35,774 nt of DNA from a virus: IMG/VR virus record IMGVR_UViG_3300049732_000304, positions 1 through 35,774 of that record; one strand, given 5' to 3'. Numbering within the stretch: position 1 is the stretch's first letter; each line of letters begins with the position of its first letter. The position numbers and the translations under genes are program-made. The notes under the pieces are model-generated. The model worked only from the letters and a program-made list of their open reading frames with translations. It made no database searches and was not told the origin of the DNA. Below, piece after piece: positions 1,060 through 25,275 of the stretch.

Positions 1060-1685
1060 GGACCTCCTTTGCGCTGGGAGAAGTCGCACCACAGACAGTG
1101 TTGTCCGGGACGTGGGGAGAAGAATGTGTCGTTGAGCATCGGCTCGGCTCGCTTCATCCAGATTACTTGCTTCTCTGCGAGATTCTCCCGCTTCAGGGTG
1201 TCAGTCACCCCGTGTCCTTGATCGATGTAAATCGTGGTGATGCTGGCCTCGTCAGTCTTTGGGCGGCTGGATAGCCCCATGATCAGATAGAGCTCACGCT
1301 GGTAGACGTGGTCTTCCCACACCTTCCCGGTTTTCCATTCACCGAGATGCAGCGCGGGAGGGTCCTCCAGCAAGGCATCTATGACGCCCCGCACCCATGC
1401 TTCGGGAGAGTCCCATGGCACGACTTCCCAGCGGTCGTTGAATGCCACGCGAACTTCAGGCTCAAAACCATCGTCTCGCATGGCCTCCGCCCGGTTGACC
1501 GCGAACTGCGGCAGCGCCTCGGTCCAAGAACCAGACTTTAGGTAGCTCTCTAAGACTTCATGGATAAAAGAGCCACGCGCTGCCGCCGGACCCTTCGGCC
1601 CCATGGGAACTCGGTCCTTGTGGCGAAATTTGAACGCCAGCGGGCATTTCTGGTAGAGCCCGTACTGGCTAAGAGTCCATGGCAT
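1047..1685 (-). CDS. Cas4/RecB-like PD-(D/E)xK exonuclease with probable Fe-S cluster cysteines
   Basis: A 212-residue nuclease of the RecB/Cas4 type (PDDEXK_1). Visible motifs: QYGLYQKCP (Cys14), GSFIHEVLE (His42), GVIDALLED (Asp103), GEWKTGK (Glu116 and Lys118), then YQRELYLI with the conserved Q-x3-Y. Three further cysteines end the protein (C197, C200, C210). One early Cys and three late ones is the arrangement that holds a 4Fe-4S cluster in Cas4 and AddB. Expected role: 5'-3' ssDNA exonuclease in replication or recombination. ATG at 1683-1685 is preceded by GGAG, and the gene overlaps the polymerase stop by 17 bases. A longer upstream start exists (to 1739) but lies deep inside the polymerase gene. 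No Cas genes are nearby, so this is not a CRISPR component. Confidence 0.87.
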   Translation of the reverse strand: MPWTLSQYGLYQKCPLAFKFRHKDRVPMGPKGPAAARGSFIHEVLESYLKSGSWTEALPQFAVNRAEAMRDDGFEPEVRVAFNDRWEVVPWDSPEAWVRGVIDALLEDPPALHLGEWKTGKVWEDHVYQRELYLIMGLSSRPKTDEASITTIYIDQGHGVTDTLKRENLAEKQVIWMKRAEPMLNDTFFSPRPGQHCLWCDFSQRKGGPCRY

Positions 1686-3459
1686 GGAGTTCTCCGAAGT
1701 TATAGCCCCAGAAGCCCTCGGAGCGCATGGGGACGTCAAAGCGGTCGCGATTCATGACCTCTTTGAGAATCTTCATGTCCATGATGAGGTCATCTTCGGG
1801 CACGGAGATGTCAATTTCATCGTGCATGGCGATGAGAAAGACGTTGGACGATGGGCGGACAGCGTCCCAATCGATCACGGTTTGCTTCGTCTGGTCCGCC
1901 GCGCTAGGTTGAATCAGATAATTCAACAGCTTGTATTCGAAGGAGCGCATCACGCCGTTCACTAGCCGGGGAGCCTCAGGTAGATAAAGCCGTCCGCCCC
2001 ACGTTCGTAGGGGAGTGTTATTCCGCCCCCGAATCCGTAGCGCGTTTCCAAGCTGGCGGACACCGGGAAGTGCCGACATGTAAGCTTCACGCAGAACATG
2101 GGCACGGCTGTAGTCGGTCCCGAGTTGCTGGGAAAGCCCCGTAACTCCAGAACCGTAGATGATGGAGAAGCCGATGATCTTCACCTCCTTCCTTTGGAGT
2201 TCGATGCCGGTGAGGTTAAGAATCATCTGGCGAGCCATTTCGTGAGGATCGAGGTCCGGGTTCTCACGATACGCCTGCATGAGCGCGCCATCCTCGTAGT
2301 GCGCCAGAATGCGAATCTCCTGCGAGGAGAAGTCGCGCTTCGCCCAGCGATGCCCCTCTTCTGGGAGAAGGTACTGGCGCATCATCGGAATTTCCATGAA
2401 TCCCTCGGGAGCCTTCGCCTTCATCTCTCCTGGAGGATTGGTGAGGTTAGGTTTATCGCAAGATAAACGACCCGTGCGGGTGCCCTTGAATGACTCCGAG
2501 CCGCCGTAGCCTTCTTGACGAACTTGATTCCAGTTGGGGTGGACTCGCCCGTTGGATGCAATCGCCTGATTATACCACGGCACTCCAAACGTGCCGTGAC
2601 ACGTTGACATACCGCCCCGGTACAGCAGCAGAGCCAGCAATTCCGGATTGTTCACACCGCTGGTCAGCGCTCCCTTGGCCATAGATCTACGGCCCGTGGG
2701 GGTAAGTTTCCACTGAGTAACTGCCCCGGCGGAGTCGAGCGCTTGCGCCAACTCTTCATCAGAATCCACATTGAACGTGCATCCGAGAATGGAATGGATA
2801 CGGGCGTCCGCCGACTTGATGGATGCGTCCATCAAGTCAATATCTTTGCTCAGGCGCTCCGTGTCCACCCGTAGACCTTGACGCTCCGCCCGGTACAGGA
2901 TAGGCATCAAGCGCTGTTCACGCTGATATGCCTCGAGCATTCCTTGCTCTCTGATTAACGGGTAGAGCTTCTCGAATAGACGCCACGTACGTCCGATGTC
3001 ACCGAGAGCATAGAGCTCCACGATCTCCACGGGTGCCTTCGCAATGAAGGCACCCCAGTTCTTCTTAGTCGCGCCGGGGACGTTACGGAGGATCCAGTCC
3101 TTGAGAATATCTTGCTCTTCTGGAGGTTCTCCGAGAATGCGCTCGGCCGAGGGTTTGAGGCTCAGACTGTCGGCATGGGGGTCGTGAAGGAAAATGAGAA
3201 ACTGCGTGTCGTGAACCTTGAGGGGGTCCCGGGGCATTGGAAGTCCGAACCAGTACATCGCCACGGAAACGTCGAACTTGGAATGGTGGAAGAGAAGTTC
3301 TTGCTCCCAAACTTCATGACAAGCGGCCCTCATGGCTTGCCAATCGGTGAGGTAGTACTCGTGGCTGTTTGATTCTCGGATTGCTAGACCTACTGGCTTC
3401 GGCGGATACTTGCTGGTATTCCCTTCGATTGCTTCTGTTTCAAAGTCCAAGACCCACAT
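1669..3459 (-). CDS. Family A DNA polymerase with 3'-5' exonuclease domain
   Basis: A 596-residue replicative polymerase. N-terminal proofreading domain: ExoI LDFETE (Asp5, Glu7), ExoII HHSKFD (Asp63), ExoIII YALGD (Tyr150, Asp154). Polymerase domain: TGRLS (329-333), motif A RDFSSQEIR (Asp376), motif B RKEVKIIGFSIIYG (about 423-436) and motif C MHDEID (His546, Asp547, Glu548). All catalytic residues are present. It is shorter than T7 gp5 (about 700 residues) and lacks a 5'-3' exonuclease domain, which neighbouring nucleases may replace. AAGGAG lies seven bases before the ATG at 3457-3459. It sits centrally in the minus-strand replication operon and should copy the phage genome with the primase-helicase at 7845. 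Confidence 0.97.
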   Translation of the reverse strand: MWVLDFETEAIEGNTSKYPPKPVGLAIRESNSHEYYLTDWQAMRAACHEVWEQELLFHHSKFDVSVAMYWFGLPMPRDPLKVHDTQFLIFLHDPHADSLSLKPSAERILGEPPEEQDILKDWILRNVPGATKKNWGAFIAKAPVEIVELYALGDIGRTWRLFEKLYPLIREQGMLEAYQREQRLMPILYRAERQGLRVDTERLSKDIDLMDASIKSADARIHSILGCTFNVDSDEELAQALDSAGAVTQWKLTPTGRRSMAKGALTSGVNNPELLALLLYRGGMSTCHGTFGVPWYNQAIASNGRVHPNWNQVRQEGYGGSESFKGTRTGRLSCDKPNLTNPPGEMKAKAPEGFMEIPMMRQYLLPEEGHRWAKRDFSSQEIRILAHYEDGALMQAYRENPDLDPHEMARQMILNLTGIELQRKEVKIIGFSIIYGSGVTGLSQQLGTDYSRAHVLREAYMSALPGVRQLGNALRIRGRNNTPLRTWGGRLYLPEAPRLVNGVMRSFEYKLLNYLIQPSAADQTKQTVIDWDAVRPSSNVFLIAMHDEIDISVPEDDLIMDMKILKEVMNRDRFDVPMRSEGFWGYNFGELHAMDS

Positions 3460-6254: not shown

Positions 6255-7025
6255 TCATGCGGCCAGCTTGATAGCGTGGTCCCAGAGTCCCCGGTTGATG
6301 TTGACCTGCTCTTTGATCGCCCGTACGGCGCGGATATTCGAGCGTCGCCCGCTGAAGGAACGTCCCGAGTGCGTGCGGGAGAGGATATTCTCCTGGATCA
6401 CATTCAAAGTCGTCCAGGCATCATTCGCCGCGTCCTTGTCACGATGCCGCTCCAGCACTTGATCGGTTGTGAGCAGCGGCGAGAGCCCGTGATAGCGGAG
6501 CTCCAGCGCGCGGCGGGCAAAGTCATGTTGCTCACTGCGCGTCAGAACGCGAGTCGCCATTGAGCGGACCGAGCGCATGAGCACGGGTAGCTCTTCGGTA
6601 ATGATCTTCACCGCCCCGAACTGCACCGCCTCGAGAGTCGCGGCGTAGCCGGAGTGTCGGACGGTTGCGCCGCCGAGCATGGTTCCGACAATCAAACCGT
6701 TCGAGCAGATAAAGCTGAAGAGGCCCGAGAACAGCCGATACGTCGCCGTGCCGTCATGCCCGTTGACGAGAATCATCTCCGGGAAGAGCTCTCCGCCACG
6801 AGGGTCTTCGAGCTTCTCGAAATCCTCGTGGCGGAAGCGCAGCATGTGTCGGGCGTACGGCGCCCGTTCCTCGGAGCGGCTCTTCGTTTGGGAAGCGCCC
6901 ACGACGCTCCAGCCGCTGTCGATCAGCCCCTCCACGATGGGCTTCGTGGGGATGAACACGTACGAACTCGACACACCCGGATAGGGCTTGGTCGCGTAGA
7001 TTGCTGGTAGAGCTTTGAGATCCAT
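6255..7025 (-). CDS. DUF932-like phage protein
   Basis: 256 residues resembling the DUF932 / phage-plasmid-like TIGR03299 group. Features: VFIPTKPIVEGLIDSGWSVVG near the start, PYARHMLRFRHED, ILVNGHDGTATYRLFSGLFSFICSNGLIVG in the centre, and AWTTLNVIQENILS with GRRSNIRAVRAI near the end. The NxHDG...SNGL pattern is the most telling. Family members are common on plasmids and phages but have no settled biochemical role. ATG at 7023-7025 follows AAAGGA. It lies four bases after the winged-helix gene, so the two are probably co-translated. Confidence 0.85.
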   Translation of the reverse strand: MDLKALPAIYATKPYPGVSSSYVFIPTKPIVEGLIDSGWSVVGASQTKSRSEERAPYARHMLRFRHEDFEKLEDPRGGELFPEMILVNGHDGTATYRLFSGLFSFICSNGLIVGTMLGGATVRHSGYAATLEAVQFGAVKIITEELPVLMRSVRSMATRVLTRSEQHDFARRALELRYHGLSPLLTTDQVLERHRDKDAANDAWTTLNVIQENILSRTHSGRSFSGRRSNIRAVRAIKEQVNINRGLWDHAIKLAA

Positions 7026-7029
7026 GGTG

Positions 7030-7425
7030 CTATCCTTTGAAGATGGGTGCGAGTGCGTCGTAGATGGCGCGGGCCTCTTCCATAGAGACCACAGCCGACT
7101 GTCCCTTGGGGAGAGGAATCATGAGGAGCACGGCGTCCTTCTTCTTGATGCGGGTGGTTTTCCGAACGACGGGAGCATCGAGCCGCCCTTCGCCGTTCAT
7201 TTCCTCCGGAAGCTCCTTCGCTACCGCCCGATACTGCGCCGCCCGCATCTTGTCCTTCTTTTCCGAGGACACCAACTTCGCTTCGACGAGCGTCGAAAGG
7301 GACGAGGAAACTGTCCCCTTGGGGATCGGGATGTGTTTGAGAGCCTGGAAAATCTGCTGCCCCGACAGAGGTCTGTCGGCGCCCTTCAGGACTGTGAAAA
7401 TCTCCTTCTTCGGATTGTAACTCAT
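7030..7425 (-). CDS. Winged-helix-like DNA-binding protein
   Basis: 131 residues. The first 60 read like a winged helix: ILTVLKGADRPLSGQQIFQ-type helices (here FTVLKGADRPLSGQQIFQAL), then PKGTVSSSLSTLVEAKLVSSEKK as the recognition helix and wing. The second half holds a basic linker (RKTTRIKKKD) and VLLMIPLPKGQSAVVSMEEARAIYDAL. It resembles small MarR/BlaI-type regulators but I cannot name a family. The ATG at 7423-7425 has GGGAG upstream; an in-frame TTG at 7434 directly abuts that site and is less likely. Being near the head of the early operon, it may regulate this operon or the repeat region at 15.3 kb. Confidence 0.68.
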   Translation of the reverse strand: MSYNPKKEIFTVLKGADRPLSGQQIFQALKHIPIPKGTVSSSLSTLVEAKLVSSEKKDKMRAAQYRAVAKELPEEMNGEGRLDAPVVRKTTRIKKKDAVLLMIPLPKGQSAVVSMEEARAIYDALAPIFKG

Positions 7426-7844: not shown

Positions 7845-9878
7845 ATGAGTCAAGAGTCGCCGATTCAGTTGGTGACCTTCAGAGATGTTTACGACTATGC
7901 AAAGAAACGGGGATTCGGTGAAGCCGATTTTGAGCAGTCCGGGTGGCAAATTCTCCCACTCGCTCGCGCTAAAGAATCTCTTGGCCATCAGGTCTTTCCT
8001 AGCGACGCCAACGCCTTCGCTATTGTCTTTCACTATCATGGCCCTGATGGATCCCCATTCGGATATGCCACGCTCCGCATCATTCGTGGCGCAAGGGACC
8101 CCCGGACGTTTGCTGGAGCCACCGAAGGCGACGGTCCTAAGATGCTTGCTCCGCCGAGACGGCCGCCTCGTGTCTATTTCAGCCGACGAGTGGCGTGGGG
8201 TGCTCTCCCGGTTGGAACAGAAGTACAGATCCATGAGTCCGTACTTAAAGCCGAATCGGCGATAAAGAAAGGCTATGTCGCTCTTGGAATTTCCGGATGT
8301 TGGGGCTGGGGCTCCAAAATACATAGGATCCCTCTTCTCGATGACTTCGGATTGCTCCCATGGAGCGCAAAAGGTCTCCGTCCCGTCGTGGTATTCGATT
8401 CCAACACGGTACGAGGATATCCCGAATTTCAAGAGCTCTTGGAAGTTGCTATCAAGCGATTTGCTGGAGCTTTCCAAATTGAACACCACGTACCGGTCAC
8501 TCGTAGACGAATCCCGGCCGGACCCGGAGGGCACTCGTGGGGGTATGACGATTGGGCGGTTACTCCTGATGGTGGGCGCTTTGAAGGCGAATCTGACGTG
8601 GTTGAGTCCGATTCTTCTCGAGCAGCACTCGAGAAGATCAACTCCGAATACGCCTACGATCACGGAGTTAATCGCATTGTCACACTCAGTGCTCCTCATC
8701 AAATCATTTCAGTCCGGGATTTTAAGGATAAGATTAAACCACTGCGATATGAAGACGCTGACGGAGAACTGAGACCAGCGTCTGAAGCGTGGATGGTGTG
8801 GGACAAAAGATTTGAGACCTACGGGCCGGTCTACCGGCCCGGCGCAGAGACTATCTGGATCGACGCAATCTCGCGCCCGCACGTGAATATGTGGTCGGGC
8901 TGGGGCTGCGACGCCAAAGAAGGGGACGCATCCCCTTTCCTCAAACTCTTGGAGAATTGTCTTGATCGAGAAGAAATTCAAGAATTCCTCATGTGGATGG
9001 CATGGCCGCTCCAGCGCCCTTCGGAAAAGAAAAGCTCAAAGGTTCCTATCCTTGTTGGACCCGAGGGTGTGGGGAAAAGCGCCATATTCCGCGTTCTTGA
9101 AAAGATTCACGGACCGAAAAACTGCGCTTTTATCAACTCTGCGGACCTTGAAAGTTCTTTCAATTCGTACATCGCCAACCGTACGCTCGTTGTTGTTGAC
9201 GATTTCACCAAGATCGATCGGAAGACGAACGCCAAGCTACGGAATATCGCGACGAATGAGACAATTCGGGTCAATGCGAAGTTCACGCCGGAATACGATG
9301 TGGAGAATTGGGCATCGCTAGGCTTCACCGGCAACGAATATGACGCATTGGCGATGGAGGAAGACTCCCGTCGATTCTTCGTTATGAAGATGACTCCGAA
9401 GGTTCGTTGGACAACGGTCGAGTGGGACCCATTCTGGAAATGGGTCCTAGAATCAGGACCTTCAGCGCTTAGGTTCTTTCTAGAACATCTTGACATCAGC
9501 TTGTTCAAGGCTGACGCACCGGCGATACTGACCACAGGCAAGAAACTCGTCGCCAGCGCAAGTGCTTCACCTCTCCACACATGGCTTCGTGATTTGAAGG
9601 ATTTCACCGGGGCGCGTCGGGTGTGTACTGCCAAGGAACTTGATTTCCTGTATGTCCGTTTCGGTGGAGGATCGCAAGATGTAACTCCGGGGCGGACTAA
9701 AGCGATTACCGACTGGTTGGCCTCCCATGGATACGTCCTTGCGACCGAGGCCAAGGTCAAAATTGACGGCCTTCCCACGCGGGTGTGGTCCCTCGATGGA
9801 TCTAGCGACTGGTCCGCGCAGGCGATTCGTGAAGAAATGACGAAGCATCCACTCGTTCCACAATCAAAGGTGGACTGA
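7845..9878 (+). CDS. Primase-like / SF3 helicase replication protein
   Basis: 677 residues. The N-terminal half resembles the Toprim-like DUF3854 domain of phage and plasmid primases: EVQIHESVLKAESAIKKG (about 127-143), ALGISGCWGWG, RPVVVFDSN (179-187). The C-terminal half is a D5-like superfamily 3 helicase: Walker A GPEGVGKS (405-412), Walker B TLVVVDD (447-453), sensor-like GFTGNE (493-498) and the Arg pair in DSRRFF (507-512). Together these suggest a replication initiator or primase-helicase that opens DNA and primes the family A polymerase. The upstream AAGGG is a modest ribosome site. The gene starts plus-strand block 2, 48 bases from the divergent minus-strand gene. The helicase call is firm; the primase activity is inferred. 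Confidence 0.9.
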   Translation: MSQESPIQLVTFRDVYDYAKKRGFGEADFEQSGWQILPLARAKESLGHQVFPSDANAFAIVFHYHGPDGSPFGYATLRIIRGARDPRTFAGATEGDGPKMLAPPRRPPRVYFSRRVAWGALPVGTEVQIHESVLKAESAIKKGYVALGISGCWGWGSKIHRIPLLDDFGLLPWSAKGLRPVVVFDSNTVRGYPEFQELLEVAIKRFAGAFQIEHHVPVTRRRIPAGPGGHSWGYDDWAVTPDGGRFEGESDVVESDSSRAALEKINSEYAYDHGVNRIVTLSAPHQIISVRDFKDKIKPLRYEDADGELRPASEAWMVWDKRFETYGPVYRPGAETIWIDAISRPHVNMWSGWGCDAKEGDASPFLKLLENCLDREEIQEFLMWMAWPLQRPSEKKSSKVPILVGPEGVGKSAIFRVLEKIHGPKNCAFINSADLESSFNSYIANRTLVVVDDFTKIDRKTNAKLRNIATNETIRVNAKFTPEYDVENWASLGFTGNEYDALAMEEDSRRFFVMKMTPKVRWTTVEWDPFWKWVLESGPSALRFFLEHLDISLFKADAPAILTTGKKLVASASASPLHTWLRDLKDFTGARRVCTAKELDFLYVRFGGGSQDVTPGRTKAITDWLASHGYVLATEAKVKIDGLPTRVWSLDGSSDWSAQAIREEMTKHPLVPQSKVD

Positions 9879-13697: not shown

Positions 13698-13937
13698 TCA
13701 TTTGACTTTCACCACGATGCCATCCCGAACTTCCACTTGGGCGTACCACCGATGAGGGGCTGGATACCACGGACCTTCCACGTATTCCGTACCGTTCACG
13801 GCGGGCGCGCCCAGACCGGGCGCGAATAACGTGACCGGTTCGCAGTGAGCGTCTTCGCTCACTGCGGTGGCGGAATTCCAAGCTGCCACGGCAGCTTGGA
13901 ATTCCTTTTTGCTTTTGAAATTTCGGTTCGCGTACAT
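13698..13937 (-). CDS. Conserved hypothetical with hairpin-rich insert
   Basis: 79 residues: MYANRNFKSKKEFQAAVAAW at the start; VTLFAPGLG, EYVEGPWYPAPHRWYAQVEV and DGIVVKVK at the end. I recall this layout from phage proteins, where the N-terminal helix leads almost directly into V(T)xFxPG. Here an extra stretch (about NSATAVSEDAHCEP) separates them, and the DNA coding it forms strong hairpins (13841-13905). ATG directly follows the stop of the upstream gene. Function unknown. Confidence 0.72.
   Translation of the reverse strand: MYANRNFKSKKEFQAAVAAWNSATAVSEDAHCEPVTLFAPGLGAPAVNGTEYVEGPWYPAPHRWYAQVEVRDGIVVKVK
13806..13905. repeat. Three consecutive perfect hairpins inside a coding sequence
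   Basis: Hairpin 1: CGCGCCC-AGACC-GGGCGCG (13806-13824). Hairpin 2: CGCAGTGAGCG-TCTT-CGCTCACTGCG (13841-13866), 11 bp. Hairpin 3: GGAATTCCAAGCTGCC, loop AC, then its exact complement (13872-13905), 16 bp without mismatch. All fall within the 13698-13937 gene. Hairpin 3 is the longest perfect short-loop palindrome I found in the window. The arms differ from one another, so this is not a simple dispersed repeat. Confidence 0.85.
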
Positions 13938-14369: not shown

Positions 14370-14828
14370 GTCCTAAGGGTCAGGTGTTGGGTTTTCGGGC
14401 GATAGCACGATGAGGTAGCCTCGGCTACCGGGCTATGGTCCTCCGTGGCACCGCAGCATTCTGTCTTGTCGGTACTTTGCGTGAACATCGGTAAGTTGAC
14501 GGCTACCGTGGCACCCTCGGCTACCCGATGAGGATAGCGAAGTGCTTGGTTTTATTGGGGAAAATGGGCGAGGTAGCCATGGTAGCCGAGGTAGCCTTGA
14601 AAAGTCAGTATACGTGCGCAGGCAGGAAGGTCAAGATGTTGTATGTTGTGCAGAGTATAGCAGGTACGGCTACTCGGCTACCCATGGCTACCTCTGGGGC
14701 GCTCCCATGCCCTCGGTGGCGGTCGTTTTGGGCCGACTTGGACAGCCGGGTCCCCAACGCAATTGCGACTCTTATGATCTTGGATTTGGCGATTCGCATC
14801 AGATTTTCGCCGGAGGAGGAAGAAAAGA
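14370..14828. repeat. Non-coding region with GGTAGCC/GGCTACC heptamer repeats
   Basis: No frame here looks like a gene. GGTAGCC occurs at 14414, 14572, 14581 and 14590. Its complement GGCTACC occurs at 14423, 14501, 14519, 14676 and 14686, with a one-base variant GGCTACT at 14668. The first pair forms a 7-bp hairpin (14414-14429). CCTCGGCTACC occurs twice (14419, 14515). Between the copies lie AT-richer stretches (TTTTATTGGGG, GTATGTTGTG). Iteron-like density in a gene-free gap suggests an origin, a protein-binding array or a structured RNA. Confidence 0.75.
14570..14694. repeat. Near-perfect 27-nt inverted repeat, 71-nt loop
   Basis: The left arm 14570-14596 and the right arm 14668-14694 are reverse complements except for two single-base shifts. 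Each arm contains three heptamers. It could extrude as a cruciform, fold as RNA, or be a paired binding site. Confidence 0.8.
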
Positions 14829-14854
14829 CCTCCGGGACGATGACGTCCCGGAGG
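14829..14854 (-). terminator. Intrinsic terminator 2 (minus strand)
   Basis: CCTCCGGGACG-ATGA-CGTCCCGGAGG, a perfect 11-bp stem, followed on the minus strand by TCTTTTCTTCC. It lies just past terminator 1 and would stop readthrough from the 15185-14889 gene. Confidence 0.82.
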
Positions 14855-14861
14855 AAGAAAA

Positions 14862-14882
14862 GGGCGCCCTCGTCGGGCGCCC
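14862..14882 (-). terminator. Intrinsic terminator 1 (minus strand)
   Basis: GGGCGCCC, 5-base loop, GGGCGCCC (self-complementary arms, 8-bp stem), followed on the minus strand by TTTTCTTCC. It lies seven bases after the stop of the 14889-15185 gene, making a tandem pair with the next hairpin. Confidence 0.85.
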
Positions 14883-14888
14883 TTCCCG

Positions 14889-15185
14889 TCAGGCCTGTTC
14901 GGCCAGCCAGCCGCGCCGGACGGCGTAGCTGACGTAGAGCAGTCCGTTGCCCTTCGGCCCGCCGCACTCCGGAACTTTCAGTTCCGGAAGCGCCGCGAGC
15001 TCGGCCGCGGTGGCCGGGAGCTTCTTGGTGATCGCCGCCCACGCCGTCGCGGTGTGGGCCGTGCGATGCTTGGGTGCCTTGGACCCGAGGACCAGTTTCT
15101 TGACGACGGGCGCTGCCGGGGCAGCGGGTGCGACCTCGGGCGCTGCCGGGGCAGCGGGTGCGACGGGTGTTACGGTCTTGGCCAT
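14889..15185 (-). CDS. Small basic protein with Ala-Pro repeat arm
   Basis: 98 residues. The first 28 are an Ala/Pro/Val arm containing two copies of VAPAAPAAP, encoded by a 27-nt direct repeat (15108-15134 and 15138-15164, 30-base period). A compact domain follows: VKKLVLGSKAPKHRTAHTATAWAAI (shown in part), PATAAELAALPELKVPECGG and LLYVSYAVRRGWLAEQ. The arm resembles flexible tails of DNA-binding or structural proteins. AAAGGAG precedes the ATG, it has its own promoter and tandem terminators, so it is a strongly expressed single-gene unit. Function unknown; an abundant nucleic-acid-binding protein is one possibility. Confidence 0.72.
   Translation of the reverse strand: MAKTVTPVAPAAPAAPEVAPAAPAAPVVKKLVLGSKAPKHRTAHTATAWAAITKKLPATAAELAALPELKVPECGGPKGNGLLYVSYAVRRGWLAEQA
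14968..14988. repeat. Perfect 9-bp hairpin inside the Ala-Pro gene
   Basis: TCCGGAACT-TTC-AGTTCCGGA, within coding sequence, no T-run. One of the intragenic hairpins clustered between 11.7 and 15.0 kb. Confidence 0.55.
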
Positions 15186-15229
15186 ACAAACTCCTTTGTG
15201 CGGTAAGGACCATTCCCTACCGTAAAATC

Positions 15230-15324: not shown

Positions 15325-15409
15325 CACTGTATATCCATACAGTCATGTGGATCTAACCACTGTATATCCATACAGTCATGTGGATCTAACCACTGTATAT
15401 CCATACAGT
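15325..15409. repeat. Triple 33-bp direct repeat carrying LexA/SOS-type boxes
   Basis: Two full 33-bp units (15325-15357, 15358-15390) and a partial third (15391-15409). Each contains ACTGTATATCCATACAGT. The boxes CTGTATATCCATACAG fall at 15327-15342, 15360-15375 and 15393-15408, exactly 33 bases apart (about three helical turns). They fit the LexA consensus CTGT-N8-ACAG, and differ at only one position from the E. coli sulA SOS box as I recall it. They may be LexA operators, sites for a phage repressor with the same specificity, or iterons. Confidence 0.85.
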
Positions 15410-15587: not shown

Positions 15588-15938
15588 GTGGGTCAGGTTA
15601 TCGAGTACATTCCACATGACCAAAATCTCGATAGCGAGCAAACCCTCGAACGTCTAGCGGGAGAGCCGAATCTCAAATTCCTTAAAATCTTCCCACGGCG
15701 AGGGCCGTTGTCACGGGCCGCCGTGGTCCAAGCATTCAACGATGCCTTCGAACAGATCGGTGGGATTTCCCGCCTTAGCCTCTGGGCAGACTCACACCCG
15801 GACGAATTCTTCAAACTCTACGCGCGTCTTCTCCCGCCGTCCTCCCACCCGGAACTCGATGACAAGAAGGACGTGAAGGTGCTTCACGTCCTCCCGCCCA
15901 CGGCGCTCGACGCGCCTCCGGAAGAAAAAGATGACTGA
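15588..15938 (+). CDS. Probable small terminase subunit
   Basis: 116 residues. GPLSRAAVVQAFNDAFEQIGG looks like a helix-turn-helix-type helical core, followed by LSLWADSHPDEFFKLYARLLP. The LWxxxxPxEFxKLYAxLLP segment is typical of phage small terminase-like proteins. The tail is acidic (PPEEKDD). The position, first gene of the late operon just before TerL, supports a role in recognising the packaging site. GTG at 15588-15590 with GGGGAAG upstream. The function is inferred; the family often appears only as hypothetical. Confidence 0.7.
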   Translation: MGQVIEYIPHDQNLDSEQTLERLAGEPNLKFLKIFPRRGPLSRAAVVQAFNDAFEQIGGISRLSLWADSHPDEFFKLYARLLPPSSHPELDDKKDVKVLHVLPPTALDAPPEEKDD

Positions 15939-16406: not shown

Positions 16407-17726
16407 GTGAAAACCGTCACCATCCCATATGCGCCGCGGGATCAATTTCTCCCATTTCACCAGAGAAATCAGCGATGGACCTGTATGGTCTGTCATCGGC
16501 GCGCTGGGAAAACGGTCGCCACGATCAATGATTTGATCACGAAAGCGCTCTACGCAAGACGAGAAAGACCCCGCTACGGATACATCGCCCCGTTTTACTC
16601 GCAAGCGAAGCAAATCGCCTGGGATTACCTCAAGCACTACTCAAAAGAAGTCGCCGTAAAGTCTTCAGAATCAGCGCTCTCCGTTGACTTGTTCAACGGG
16701 GCGAGAATTACGCTCTACGGAGCGGATAACCCAGACTCTTTTCGGGGTCTGTACTTCGACGGAGTTGCCGTGGACGAATACGGCAATTGTCGTCCGAACT
16801 TGTGGTCGGAAATTCTGCGTCCAGCCCTGTCGGACCGACGGGGATGGGCAGTTTTCATTGGAACACCGAACGGTCCCAACCATTTTTACGATATTTGGGA
16901 GCAAGCTGGGGAAGACGCGCAGTCGTGGTATCGTCTTATGCTCAAGGCGAGTGAAACGGGCATTATAGACCCGGACGAACTCGCTGAAATGAAGAAGTCT
17001 ATGAGCGAGGATGAGTATGAATCAGAAATGGAGTGCTCTTGGTTTGCCGCCGTTCGAGGGAGTTACTACGGGCAAGAAGTCAAGGCCGCGAAGATCGGCA
17101 ATTTTCCGTCGGTTCCAGGAGTGGAAAGTCACTACGTGTTTGATCTTGGGTACACCGACACCACCGCCGTCTGGCGATGGCAAGAATTCGTCGACCACAT
17201 TCTCGTCAGCTACGCTAACGAGTGGGAGTCCAAAAGCATCGAGTTCTACATAAACTGGCTCCATGCTCAGCGTGAGGCCGGTTATCGGATGGGGCAAATC
17301 TGGCTCCCTCAGGACGCGCGGGCGAAATCCCTTCAGACAGGGCGCTCTATCGTTGAACAGATGCTCAACGGAGGCATCCGCCCACGGCTGGTCCCAAATC
17401 TTGGCATTCAGGACGGAATTAGCGCCGCTCGGTTAATGTTCAAAGACATTGTGTTTGACGGGCAAGGGTGCTACAATGGGCTCAAAGCTCTAAAGAGTTA
17501 CAAAAGGGAGTTCGACGAAGAAAAGAAGGTCTTTCGCGACAAGCCGCTACACGATTGGGCGTGTAACTACGCGGATTCCTTCCGGTATTTGAGTCTCGTA
17601 GCGAAACTTGGAGCGCCGTCTCCGCTCGTGGAGGCGCCGAAGCCATTCGCGGTCCCGCTGCACTACAGCTTCACGATGGATCAGGCCTGGACATGTGGCC
17701 CCATCCGTGATAAGAGGATCCGCTAA
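16407..17726 (+). CDS. terL: Large terminase subunit (ATPase and nuclease)
   Basis: 439 residues. ATPase: Walker A CHRRAGKT (29-36), Walker B DGVAVDE (118-124), coupling motif IGTPNG (151-156). RNase H-like nuclease: FDLGYTDTTAVW (Asp246, Asp251), LPQDARAKS (Asp303) and HDWACNYADSFRY (Asp383/Asp390). Both halves are intact, so it should cut concatemers and drive DNA into the prohead through the portal. The start is GTG at 16407 with no Shine-Dalgarno sequence; an in-frame stop at 16380 leaves no better choice. The stop overlaps the portal ATG by one base (TAATG). The packaging mechanism cannot be told from sequence alone. Confidence 0.96.
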   Translation: MKTVTIPYAPRDQFLPFHQRNQRWTCMVCHRRAGKTVATINDLITKALYARRERPRYGYIAPFYSQAKQIAWDYLKHYSKEVAVKSSESALSVDLFNGARITLYGADNPDSFRGLYFDGVAVDEYGNCRPNLWSEILRPALSDRRGWAVFIGTPNGPNHFYDIWEQAGEDAQSWYRLMLKASETGIIDPDELAEMKKSMSEDEYESEMECSWFAAVRGSYYGQEVKAAKIGNFPSVPGVESHYVFDLGYTDTTAVWRWQEFVDHILVSYANEWESKSIEFYINWLHAQREAGYRMGQIWLPQDARAKSLQTGRSIVEQMLNGGIRPRLVPNLGIQDGISAARLMFKDIVFDGQGCYNGLKALKSYKREFDEEKKVFRDKPLHDWACNYADSFRYLSLVAKLGAPSPLVEAPKPFAVPLHYSFTMDQAWTCGPIRDKRIR

Positions 17727-20011
17727 TGGCCGAATACGATTGCGAATACTGGAAAAACCAGATCACCCTCTCCGAGAAGGACTTGGAGAATTTCCATTCG
17801 GCGGGGGACACGGTCAACGGACACTACCTCGACACGAATACCTCCAATGAGGAGGGCCTTGGTGCTCACAAGGTCAATATGTTCTGGGCGAACGTCGGCA
17901 TTCTCAAGGCGGCACTCTACGGAAACCCGCCCAAGCCGATCGTAGGACGCGAATTCCAGGATCCAGAAGACGATGTGGCTCGCGTAGCAGGCGAAATCAT
18001 TTATCGTCTTCTGCAGACAGGTCCCGGAGGCTCGGGAGCCGATATGCACAATGCTCTAAATCAGGCGGTCGAGGATCGCCTGATTCCGGGCCTCGGGCAA
18101 ATCTGGTTCCGCTACGATTCCGACATCTCCAGCGGAACTTACGAGGGCGTTCCCATCGAGAAAATCAACGATGAGAACGTCCCTTGTGACTATGTCCACT
18201 GGAAGGACTTCTTCTACAGCCCGTGTCGCTTCTGGACGGAGTGTACATGGGTCGCGCGACGCGTTTGGATGTCCAGAGGCGCGATGAAGAAGCGCTTCCC
18301 GCAGCACGCCGACGCCATTCAGTTATTTGCGTACCAAGACGGTAAGGGTATTACGGTACGAAATGACGATCCTGCGAAAACCGAGATGCGGGGAGAGATT
18401 TTCGAGATTTGGTGCAAGGCCACGAAGCGAGTACATTGGATCGCGCGGGGCTACGACACCATGCTCGATGAAAAAGACGATCCGTACCAGCTTAAAGATT
18501 TCTATCCGTGCCCGAAACCACTTCTGGCGAACAAAACGAACAAGAAATTCATCGGGCGTGCCGACTATACGATGGTGCAGGATCAGTATCAGCAGCTCAA
18601 CAACATCAATATCCGGATAAACTACCTCGTCGATGCGTGCAAGGCCGTCGGGGTCTACGACAAGACGGCCAAAGGCGTCGAAAGAATGCTCAATCAGGGA
18701 GTGGAAAACCAACTCATCCCTGTGGACAATTGGGCCGCATTCGCCGAGAAGGGCGGCGTTAAAGGAGTCATCGATTGGCTCCCGTTGGAAGTCATCATTA
18801 CCGTCATCGAGAAGCTGCGCGAGGCGCGCAGCGACACGATTCAGCAAATCTACGAATTGACGGGTATTTCCGACATCATGCGTGGTGTCACCAACGCCCG
18901 CGAGACCTACGGAGCCCAGAAACTCAAGGCGCAGTACTCTAGCTCGCGCCTACAGCTCTATCAACAAGAGGTGGCCGAGTTCGTGGCGGAGGGGCTTGTC
19001 ATTAAAGCTCAGATTATCGCCAACCACTTCCAACCAGACACCATTTTTAAGAAATCCTTGATCGAGTACACGCCAGACGTCATGTACGCGCGGCAGGCGA
19101 TTCAACTCATCAAGGACAAGCTCATGTTGATGTATCGCATCAACGTGTCCGCGACCCAGATGTCGCTGCCGGACTACAATGCCGAAAAGCAGAATCGACT
19201 GGAGTTCGTCGAAAAGATGGGCCAATTCTTCGGCCAGATGGCGCCGATCCTGGAGAAGGCTCCCACGGCAGCGCCATTCGCTCTCAGAATGCTTCAGTGG
19301 GCGGGGGCGGCGTTCGACACTCGCGGAGGCGTGGAAACGCTGTTCGACAACTACATCCGCGAGGTGGAGAAGACACTCAGCACCCCACCTGCCCCTCCGC
19401 CCGATCCGACGCTCCAAAAGGCGCAAATCGACGCGAAAAACAAGGTCGACATCGCCCAATTCGACGCCAAGAGCAAGGAAACGCTTGCCACCATCGACGC
19501 GAACGTGCGGTGGCAGATCGCCCAACTTGAAGCTCGCACGGAGAAGGAAATCGCGGGCCTCAAAGTTGATTCGGATCAGCAAATCGCGAATAATGCCAAT
19601 ATCAAGGCGTTTGGCGAAGAGGCTAAGGGCCTCGATGAGGAGCGCCAGAAGCTTGAGTCGGACCGCCGTGACTTCGAAAGCATGGCGGAAATCACGGAAG
19701 TCCAAGTCAAGTCTCTCGTGGATGCTGCCCTGCTTGAAATCGAGCGTTTGGGCCTGAACCATGAGGCCAAGACGAAAGATGCAATCGCGACGGCCGAGCG
19801 GAAGAATAAGGAGGCCGTGACGACCTCCGAGAAGGACAGCTCGGCTAAGGAAGTTGCAGCCCTTCAGAAGATGCACCGTGAGATGGTCACGGCTGTGAAC
19901 GAAGTAGCGTCCCATCTGAAAGAGATGAAGAAATCCAAGCCGAAGTCGGTAGCCATAGAGCTTCCCGACGGCAAGACGGCGTCCGCTACGATCACAGAGG
20001 AGACTAAGTAA
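17726..20011 (+). CDS. Portal protein
   Basis: 761 residues. The N-terminal two thirds read as a podovirus-type portal: MFWANVGILKAALYGNPPKP, GLGQIWFRYDSD, WKDFFYSPCRFWTECTWVAR, YTMVQDQYQQLNNINIRINY and the conserved ELTGISDIMRGVT. The last roughly 180 residues form a long charged helical region (QIDAKNKVDIAQFDAKSKET, then many Lys/Glu heptads), likely the barrel or an internal coiled coil. It forms the dodecameric DNA gate at one capsid vertex and the platform for the tail tubular proteins. It is directly coupled to TerL upstream and to the next gene (TAATG). Confidence 0.95.
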   Translation: MAEYDCEYWKNQITLSEKDLENFHSAGDTVNGHYLDTNTSNEEGLGAHKVNMFWANVGILKAALYGNPPKPIVGREFQDPEDDVARVAGEIIYRLLQTGPGGSGADMHNALNQAVEDRLIPGLGQIWFRYDSDISSGTYEGVPIEKINDENVPCDYVHWKDFFYSPCRFWTECTWVARRVWMSRGAMKKRFPQHADAIQLFAYQDGKGITVRNDDPAKTEMRGEIFEIWCKATKRVHWIARGYDTMLDEKDDPYQLKDFYPCPKPLLANKTNKKFIGRADYTMVQDQYQQLNNINIRINYLVDACKAVGVYDKTAKGVERMLNQGVENQLIPVDNWAAFAEKGGVKGVIDWLPLEVIITVIEKLREARSDTIQQIYELTGISDIMRGVTNARETYGAQKLKAQYSSSRLQLYQQEVAEFVAEGLVIKAQIIANHFQPDTIFKKSLIEYTPDVMYARQAIQLIKDKLMLMYRINVSATQMSLPDYNAEKQNRLEFVEKMGQFFGQMAPILEKAPTAAPFALRMLQWAGAAFDTRGGVETLFDNYIREVEKTLSTPPAPPPDPTLQKAQIDAKNKVDIAQFDAKSKETLATIDANVRWQIAQLEARTEKEIAGLKVDSDQQIANNANIKAFGEEAKGLDEERQKLESDRRDFESMAEITEVQVKSLVDAALLEIERLGLNHEAKTKDAIATAERKNKEAVTTSEKDSSAKEVAALQKMHREMVTAVNEVASHLKEMKKSKPKSVAIELPDGKTASATITEETK

Positions 20012-23840: not shown

Positions 23841-24154
23841 AACGCAGATTCATTCAGCAGTTGGACGGAACTCTTGTGGAAGTTTCGCCTGATTTCGTGG
23901 CCGAACCACAGAACCATGATGGAGTTTTGTGGAACGATCGTGCCTATCAGGACGCGGGGGATTCAAGATTTAGTTCTCGCTCGCAGCACCGTGAGTTCAT
24001 GAGGGCGAGGGGGCTAACGACCACTGACGACTTCAAGAATCAGTGGAGAACAGACGAGAAAAATCGTATAGAAGCACGCAAGGGAGTCGATCCGAGTCGC
24101 AAAGCAGATATTGCGAGAGCCATCGAGGTAGTGAACTCTAGGAGAAAATCATGA
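23837..24154 (+). CDS. Conserved small podovirus hypothetical
   Basis: 105 residues: MKRRFIQQLDGTLVEVSPDF, WNDRAYQDAGDSRFSSRSQH, REFMRARGLTTTDDFK, then a helical tail. I recall similar small proteins just before phage scaffold or capsid genes, where RFxSRSxHREFMRxxGL is the best-kept part. Overlaps both neighbours by four bases (ATGA). The role is unknown; assembly-related is a fair guess. Confidence 0.72.
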   Translation: MKRRFIQQLDGTLVEVSPDFVAEPQNHDGVLWNDRAYQDAGDSRFSSRSQHREFMRARGLTTTDDFKNQWRTDEKNRIEARKGVDPSRKADIARAIEVVNSRRKS

Positions 24155-25275
24155 GCGATGTACGCGCAGACATCGAAGCAGCCCTGACAAGAGCCGAGGC
24201 GGCAGCGGCTCCGCAGCCCGAAGAAAAGCCGACCGAAGTCAAAGCGGAGGAAAAGCCCGCCGAAGAAAAGCCCGCTGAAATCAAAGCGGAGGAAAAGCCC
24301 GCCGAAGAGAAACCGGCAGAAGAAAAGCCCGCTGGAGAGCAGAGGCCAGCGGAAGAAAAGAAGCCAGAAATCAAGGCGGAAGAAAAGCCCGACGAGCAGA
24401 AGCCTGCGGAGCAGAAACCTGTCATCAAAGTTCGCCCGCCGGAAAGCTGGAAGCCCGCCATCCGGGAAAAGCACTGGACGACACTTCCTCTGGAGGTGCA
24501 GGCGGAAATTCATCGTCGCGAGCGCCAGATTGACATAGCGCTCCAGCAGTCGGCCGAAAGTCGCAAATTCGCCGAGCAATTCGGTGGACTTTTCGCCCAG
24601 CACAAGAACTTCATCGAATACGAGAAGACCCCGCCCGCGCAGATCGTCTCTAACCTATTCAACATCGCCAGCAGTCTCCGCTTTGGAGCCCCTGCTCAAA
24701 AAGCACAAGTCGCCGCGCAAATCATCCAGGGATTCGGTGTCGATGTCAAGCTTCTGGATCAGGCGCTGGCCCTCGTGGTCTCTGGCAATGGAGCTCCAGC
24801 GAACGGAGGTTTCGACCCCAACGCTCTGGACGCCGCCATCTCTCGCCACATGGCTCCGTTCCGTGATTTCATGCAAAACGTGACCACGCAACGTGAGAAT
24901 GTGGTGAAGGACCAGAACAAAAAGATGGAGGACGAAATCAACACGTTCGCCAACGATCCGAAGAACGAATACTTCGAGATCGTCAAAGACACTATGGCCG
25001 ATCTTCTGGATGCGGCGGCTAACCGCGGAGAGCAAATGAGCTTGCAAGTCGCCTACCAGCGTGCTATACTCGCCCATAGTGATCTCGCGGCCACAGTGAC
25101 GCAAAAGGAAGTGTCCAAAGCGGCCTCGAATCTGAATGCTCCGGCTCAGAAGTCTCGCGAACTCGCGGGAATGAGCGTAACGGGAGCGCCGTCAGGTTCG
25201 GCCCCTTCCGCGAATGTGGACACAGTCCGGGGAGCCATCGAAGCCGCGATCGCGAAGCACAGTGGTCGGCAGTAA
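24151..25275 (+). CDS. Scaffolding protein
   Basis: 374 residues. The first 95 are a charged repeat arm built from EEKPAE/EIKAEEKPAE units. A helical body follows (EVQAEIHRRERQIDIALQQS, VAAQIIQGFGVDVKLLDQAL, MEDEINTFANDPKNEYFEIV) with an Ala-rich end (GAIEAAIAKHSGRQ). The acidic, helical, low-aromatic character and the location directly before the major capsid protein are typical of podovirus scaffolds. It should guide capsid assembly and be lost before or during packaging. Start overlaps the previous stop (ATGA). Confidence 0.88.
   Translation: MSDVRADIEAALTRAEAAAAPQPEEKPTEVKAEEKPAEEKPAEIKAEEKPAEEKPAEEKPAGEQRPAEEKKPEIKAEEKPDEQKPAEQKPVIKVRPPESWKPAIREKHWTTLPLEVQAEIHRRERQIDIALQQSAESRKFAEQFGGLFAQHKNFIEYEKTPPAQIVSNLFNIASSLRFGAPAQKAQVAAQIIQGFGVDVKLLDQALALVVSGNGAPANGGFDPNALDAAISRHMAPFRDFMQNVTTQRENVVKDQNKKMEDEINTFANDPKNEYFEIVKDTMADLLDAAANRGEQMSLQVAYQRAILAHSDLAATVTQKEVSKAASNLNAPAQKSRELAGMSVTGAPSGSAPSANVDTVRGAIEAAIAKHSGRQ

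Follow-up and report, generated by a model that had tools for sequence, protein, structure and literature searches.

What is the function of a gene-free stretch of phage DNA that carries one seven-letter word over and over on both strands, and which protein would read it? To our knowledge, the replication origins of most phages are unknown, and such an array could mark one. The region in question occupies positions 14370 to 14828 of a virus record from IMG/VR, and the stretch of DNA that we analysed (the window) is that record in full, 35,774 bases. Comparison of its sequence with those of relatives and of unrelated carriers suggests, with a probability of roughly 0.8, that the array consists of the iterons of the phage's own helicase at its replication origin, or at a major part of it.

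Genomic context of the array

No end repeats of at least 10 nt and no tRNA genes were detected in the 35,774-base record, and no Rfam match was obtained anywhere in it, the array included. The phage has genes of its own for the large terminase, the portal and the structural proteins of the virion. The genes that bear on the function of the array are the following.

1669-3459, minus strand: family A DNA polymerase, in the same replication module as the helicase (domain and profile matches)
6255-7025: DUF932 protein, between the DNA polymerase and helicase genes
7845-9878, plus strand: SF3 helicase/primase-type protein (PF19263, DUF5906; VapE-like), the proposed initiator
16407-17726: large terminase
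17726-20011: portal protein

Other elements of the window were recorded as well. A strong terminator-like hairpin with 15 pairs (GGAATTCCAAGCTGCC... and then a run of T) is located at 13872-13905, and a Glu/Lys/Pro-rich coding repeat with periods of 15-42 (24218-24339) lies within a 374-aa gene (24151-25275). At 15325-15409, upstream of a 116-aa gene at 15588, there is a perfect 33-bp tandem repeat of 2.6 copies; every unit contains ACTGTATATCCATACAGT, so that CTGT-N8-ACAG, the E. coli LexA/SOS-box pattern, occurs there three times. This tandem repeat is absent from the related records L003 and L008, and the relatives L027 and L028 have a single, different CTGT-N8-ACAG at another place.

A two-strand heptamer array without a gene

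An earlier note on this DNA had described ten GGTAGCC/GGCTACC heptamers, one of them degenerate, in about 280 bases. We found nine exact copies (14414+, 14423-, 14501-, 14519-, 14572+, 14581+, 14590+, 14676- and 14686-) and a word with one mismatch at 14668, giving ten words on both strands within 279 nt (14414-14692). The heptamer had been judged not to be prominent elsewhere, and its density is indeed not uniform over the record, the sole further exact copy being at 19948. Whole-window shuffles contained 2.5 exact copies on average and 5 at most, and the densest cluster of any 7-mer per 280 nt had 9 copies in the window, whereas it had 3 or 4 in each of 100 windows simulated with a first-order Markov model. 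The words form an outer pair and three clusters of three units with a period of about 9 nt, the clusters being in the order minus, plus, minus.

14414-14429, one heptamer per strand: outer pair, GGTAGCC TC GGCTACC
14501-14525, minus strand: putative iteron cluster 1, GGCTACC GT GGCACCC TC GGCTACC, with a 9-nt period and a degenerate middle unit
14526-14571: spacer of 46 nt between the opposed clusters 1 and 2, 52% A+T, with AAGTGCTTG at 14540-14548
14572-14596, plus strand: putative iteron cluster 2, GGTAGCC AT GGTAGCC GA GGTAGCC
14668-14692, minus strand: putative iteron cluster 3, GGCTACT C GGCTACC CAT GGCTACC, the inverted-repeat partner of cluster 2
14829-14854, minus strand: terminator-like hairpin (consensus match only) of the adjoining 98-aa gene (14889-15185, minus strand), which bounds the gene-free region on one side

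The near-perfect inverted repeat of 27 nt, with its 71-nt loop, that had been reported is present at 14570-14596 and 14668-14694; it has no substitutions, but its alignment requires a single 1-nt bulge in each arm. Because of these bulges, a gap-free repeat finder returned no 27-nt entry. Cluster 2 also pairs, imperfectly, with 14499-14525.

All six reading frames contain stops within 14370-14828. Longer frames overlap the region in part (14528-14932 on the plus strand and 14605-15213 on the minus strand), and these are not conserved because the indels between orthologues are not multiples of three. The region thus holds no credible gene, as had been proposed, and the orthologue comparison revealed no conserved gene that had escaped recognition. 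Analysis of GC skew showed no turning point at the array.

The array word changes in concert in relatives

Conservation in relatives had been suggested as a check, and the array is conserved. L003 and L008 have the same word and the same plan, that is, three perfect minus-strand units, 48 nt, three perfect plus-strand units and then a minus-strand cluster. The orthologous array of L027 and L028 (70% identity over 645 columns) has the same layout, including a 46-nt spacer in L027, with a changed word: GGTTGCC is exact in five units, two more have one mismatch and the remaining two are degenerate. Cluster 1 of L027 is made of GGCAACC units, and its cluster 2 reads AGTTGCC, GGTTGCC, GGTTGCC. At the place aligned with the outer pair, L008 has the plus-strand copy only and L027 has neither copy in exact form. 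Judging from these alignments, the word change in L027 and L028 is concerted, which is what one would predict for sites recognised by a single protein. The distance between array and helicase gene is 4.5 kb in the window and about 1.1 kb in L027. Another record, L019, is 99.99% identical to the window over 8.3 kb and adds no information.

The terminase relatives L161-L163 had no array in the available sequence, which starts within 1.7 kb (L162 and L163) or 1.3 kb (L161) of the terminase gene. No clear array was seen by eye in the named phages PW916, AXL_3 and ctUtU524, whose helicases are 27-29% identical to that of the window. Nucleotide searches of named phages and plasmids with the array alone gave nothing convincing (best E 3-4), and a search with 7.9 kb gave short matches only, all of them outside the array.

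The C-terminal domain of the helicase diverges with the array word

The proposed reader is the helicase encoded at 7845-9878, which matches PF19263 with an E value of 1.7e-17 and also PHROG primase families. Its orthologues are 86% (L029) and 82% (L027 and L028) identical to it. At its end the L029 contig shares 230 identical nt with the beginning of L008, and we therefore infer that L029 is linked to the GGTAGCC array. Over residues 601-650, the L029 protein differs from that of the window at 1 of 50 positions, with 25 synonymous codon changes, and the L027 protein at 12 of 50, with 24 synonymous codon changes. The corresponding differences over residues 1-600 are 83 of 600 in L029 and 101 of 600 in L027. 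Of the 153 variable sites, eleven in succession (590-644) are changed in L027 alone (permutation p 0.002); this stretch was not preselected but is the longest such run.

A structural model of the helicase was built from 47 sequences (mean pLDDT 82.9, pTM 0.64). In this model a helix at 596-605, a helix at 615-627 and strands at 638-649 adopt a winged-helix arrangement.

9606-9800, plus strand: codons for the winged-helix-like C-terminal domain (residues 588-652), the proposed heptamer reader
9687-9725, plus strand: putative recognition helix of the model (residues 615-627)

The substitutions between the window and L027 include G616Y, A620Q, T622S and S627A in the putative recognition helix, and E635N, A636V, L643I and P644S at the wing. 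With the whole model, Foldseek matched the C-terminal region of the NrS-1 protein best (6k9c, E 7e-20) and also the SaPI5 primase-helicase (7ola/7pds, E 4e-10). The C-terminal domain modelled alone (pLDDT 76.3) gave no Foldseek match below E 0.001; its weak structural matches, with Z up to 5.9, included many winged-helix proteins (Fur, FoxO and ORC domains). The change in this domain thus covaries with the array word in one independent switch, since L027 and L028 share one array; part of the pattern reflects ancestry because the window is closer to L029 overall.

GGTAGCC arrays in unrelated records

IMG/VR was scanned for three GGTAGCC units with a 9-nt period, and 24 loci were found. Two-strand arrays, defined by at least two words per strand within 400 nt, were present at 8 of them: three loci of the window's lineage, L012, L025, L018, L021 and L011. 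The L011 array is a coding repeat, and L012 and L025 share an identical helicase. In a control with the reversed heptamer, none of 66 loci had a two-strand array. The arrays lie 38 nt (L012 and L025), 10 nt (L018), 34 nt (L021) and 362 nt (L024) past the 3' end of a helicase or primase gene. In L024 the helicase is of the PF19263 family, and the words are on one strand only. Support for the L018 helicase is weak, consisting of a PHROG match with E 0.0086 and a P-loop recognised by eye. PF19263 was found in none of the 16 records of the remaining GGTAGCC loci, a profile that also does not detect L018 or L021. It was substituted for a local helicase-core profile, which was dropped as a control because it missed even L012.

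Relatives of the L021 helicase have another word in the same place, AACGTAGCC in L082 (67% identity) and GCTGGGAAC in L083 and L084 (54%). The array of L083 and L084 consists of GCTGGGAAC and GTTCCCAGC units at about 6880-7130, directly after an SF3 helicase-type gene. Arrays therefore adjoin the 3' end of the helicase gene in L012, L018, L021, L024, L082 and L083. The C-terminal domains of the unrelated GGTAGCC-array helicases did not align with that of the window. Sampling from the many origins in the collection may suffice to explain why one word recurs in unrelated carriers.

A scan for the dimer GGTAGCCACGGTAGCC gave 29 loci, mostly coding, and besides L018 and L021 a loose two-strand array was found in L078 only. 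Tandem GGTAGCCNN runs are common in genes and in intergenic DNA. A scan of bacterial genomes gave 19 loci, which were simple repeats, none with the two-strand layout by eye.

Arrays of other words at distant helicase loci

Distant relatives of the window helicase, with best segments that are mostly 24-34% identical, gave 49 loci that are non-redundant at 90%. A two-strand 7-mer array was present at 14 of the 49, the window and L027 included, compared with 0, 0, 1, 0 and 1 of 49 in five Markov replicates, a contrast that is overstated because the Markov controls ignore codon structure. The other 35 loci had no array at the stringency used. Clear arrays were located just upstream of the helicase gene in L104 (GTTGCC), L142 (GTAATAG), L124 (TGTAACA) and L123 (GCGCAGT); several of the 14, among them L092, L097, L105, L110 and L132, are weak, genic or remote. 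We also considered GGTAGCC as a universal signal of SF3 helicases and found this idea unsupported, as no GGTAGCC array was found at the distant helicase loci scanned and the C-terminal domains did not align among unrelated carriers.

A separate motif was seen at some of these loci. The spacer of the window array carries AAGTGCTTG, a shorter form of AAGTRCTTGATT, which fits the IHF consensus. AAGTRCTTGATT occurs at 5 of 50 loci in distantly related phages (L088 at 6241, L098 at 8945, L104 at 9233, L128 at 9501 and L139 at 8207), in each case no more than 1.6 kb upstream of the helicase gene, compared with a uniform-base estimate of about 0.2 in 843 kb; its middle GTRC is also kept. Of the two, only AAGTRCTTGATT stands out; enrichment of AAGTGCTTG by itself is weak (13 of 50 loci, when permuted words averaged 4.8 loci and reached 20 at most).

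Alternative explanations for the array

Because terminase genes lie close to the array, the main surviving rival is a cos/pac-type packaging site read by a terminase small subunit, which would be the product of a gene adjoining that of the large terminase, such as the 116-aa gene at 15588; we consider this explanation unlikely. The large terminase gene (16407) begins 1.7 kb after the array, which is situated between the replication and packaging modules, as it seems to be in L024 and L021 when judged by eye, and the 116-aa product diverges more in L027 (82%) than in L008 (91%). However, this protein has no PHROG match, the change in the helicase is concentrated in a single DNA-binding-like domain, and the array is tied to the 3' end of the helicase gene in L018, L021, L082 and L083, with no terminase recognised by eye in the open frames near the L018 array. 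Operators, too, may consist of short direct and inverted sites that lie between transcription units. An array of this kind for another regulator (a repressor, partition or transcription factor), without a role in replication, is more improbable still, since no other DNA-binding family match was recognised beside the array among the proteins scanned, and in unrelated records the gene repeatedly found beside such arrays is that of a helicase or primase.

A structured untranslated RNA, which had been among the readings first offered, or a cruciform in which the stem rather than the word matters, has very little to recommend it. The predicted folds of both strands are better than those of shuffled sequences (z -3.7 and -3.2), and the pRN1 plasmid, as described in the accessible part of one account, requires a stem-loop after its SF3 gene (PMC4234260). 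Such fold scores are expected, however, because an inverted repeat, whatever its kind, gives either strand a higher score. Between clusters 1 and 2, the 2-nt spacers that separate the units are paired in L008 and unpaired in the window and in L027; this pairing is absent from two of three orthologues, and therefore the stem is not the conserved feature. The one-strand copies of L024 and the absence of an Rfam match argue in the same direction, and we rejected the structured RNA as a candidate. That the array is a functionless 9-nt repeat, arising by chance or like a microsatellite, is scarcely credible. Tandem GGTAGCCNN runs are common, the bacterial scan included, and 16 of the 24 viral loci are in records without the helicase family; against this, the two-strand clusters of the window have a conserved spacing, and relatives have kept them, with a joint change of their units. 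We regard it as almost certain that the array is functional DNA.

Proposed function of the array

A replication origin and a binding array for the SF3 helicase had also been put forward in the earlier note, and the concerted word change, the divergence of the C-terminal domain and the arrays beside other SF3 genes all favour iterons at an origin. The phage's own SF3 helicase would bind the heptamers directly through its winged-helix-like C-terminal domain, and the opposed clusters would load two hexamers. Melting and priming may then begin in the 46-nt spacer, so that replication would start at the array. Doubt about the origin reading comes mainly from three sources: there is a single independent switch, the array is distant from the helicase gene, and terminase genes are close by.

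We give about even odds to a broader proposal, in which the array belongs to a large and mostly undescribed class of phage origins with words of about 7 nt, a period of about 9 nt, copies on both strands and an SF3 C-terminal winged helix, the word drifting with the domain. The words counted in this class are GGTAGCC, GGTTGCC, AACGTAGCC, GCTGGGAAC, GTAATAG and GTTGCC. If the class is real, the domain should predict the word, and sequence alone could locate the origins of phages that have not been cultured, which offers a possible route to origins in those that encode SF3 helicases. The natural joint switch of iterons and a few residues also offers a ready case for testing how initiator and origin come to be re-matched.

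Comparison with known systems

A literature search for the word and for such phage origins, in which subscription journals were thinly covered, left the array undescribed among the papers found. The accessible parts of the published accounts put the origin of SaPI/PICI elements immediately past the 3' end of rep, where two sets of iterons flank an AT-rich region (PMC6092414), and state that the Rep helicase reads these short iterons via its C-terminal domain (PMC6092414, PMC7581432). The window likewise encodes an SF3/D5-like helicase, whose model matches the SaPI5 primase-helicase structures, and its word sets (clusters 1 and 2) are opposed across 46 nt; the likeness to the AT-rich region is weak because the spacer is only 52% A+T. 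Unlike in SaPI/PICI, the window array has three clusters and is 4.5 kb from the helicase gene rather than directly 3' of it, and it is carried by a phage that encodes a terminase, a portal protein and a DNA polymerase of family A. In its overall plan the array is akin to the origins of SaPI/PICI, P4 and SCCmec Cch2. We did not class the window as a PICI, a satellite that depends on the virion genes of a helper phage, because of this distance and because it has its own packaging genes.

For SCCmec, the accessible text reports that direct repeats downstream of the cch2 gene are bound by Cch2 and that its isolated C-terminal domain binds the site (PMC7581432). Those repeats, unlike the heptamers of the window, are 5-nt AAGTG words in three copies, and replication in vivo is still to be demonstrated according to the same text (PMC7581432). 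What Cch2 and the window have in common is a D5-type helicase with a direct-repeat site. The iterons of P4 ori and crr differ from those of the window in word and layout. The alpha protein of P4 combines a helicase with a winged helix that binds origin repeats, as noted in the accessible part of PMC4234260.

That part of the same paper also describes pRN1 ORF904, an SF3 protein with a C-terminal winged helix whose gene is followed by a required stem-loop, and a stem-loop inverted repeat 3' of the SF3 gene of Bordetella phage BIP-1; in pRN1 it reports no iterons and no detectable specific binding to the stem-loop (PMC4234260). The window array is unlike a stem-loop origin of the pRN1 type in that it conserves heptamers and not a stem, as indicated by the unpaired cluster 1 and 2 spacers in two of three orthologues. 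Phage NrS-1, by the accessible account, differs from the window in having just two copies of an 8-nt recognition sequence (PMC7102993). Its primase-polymerase is the protein that the modelled window helicase matches best in structure (6k9c, E 7e-20).
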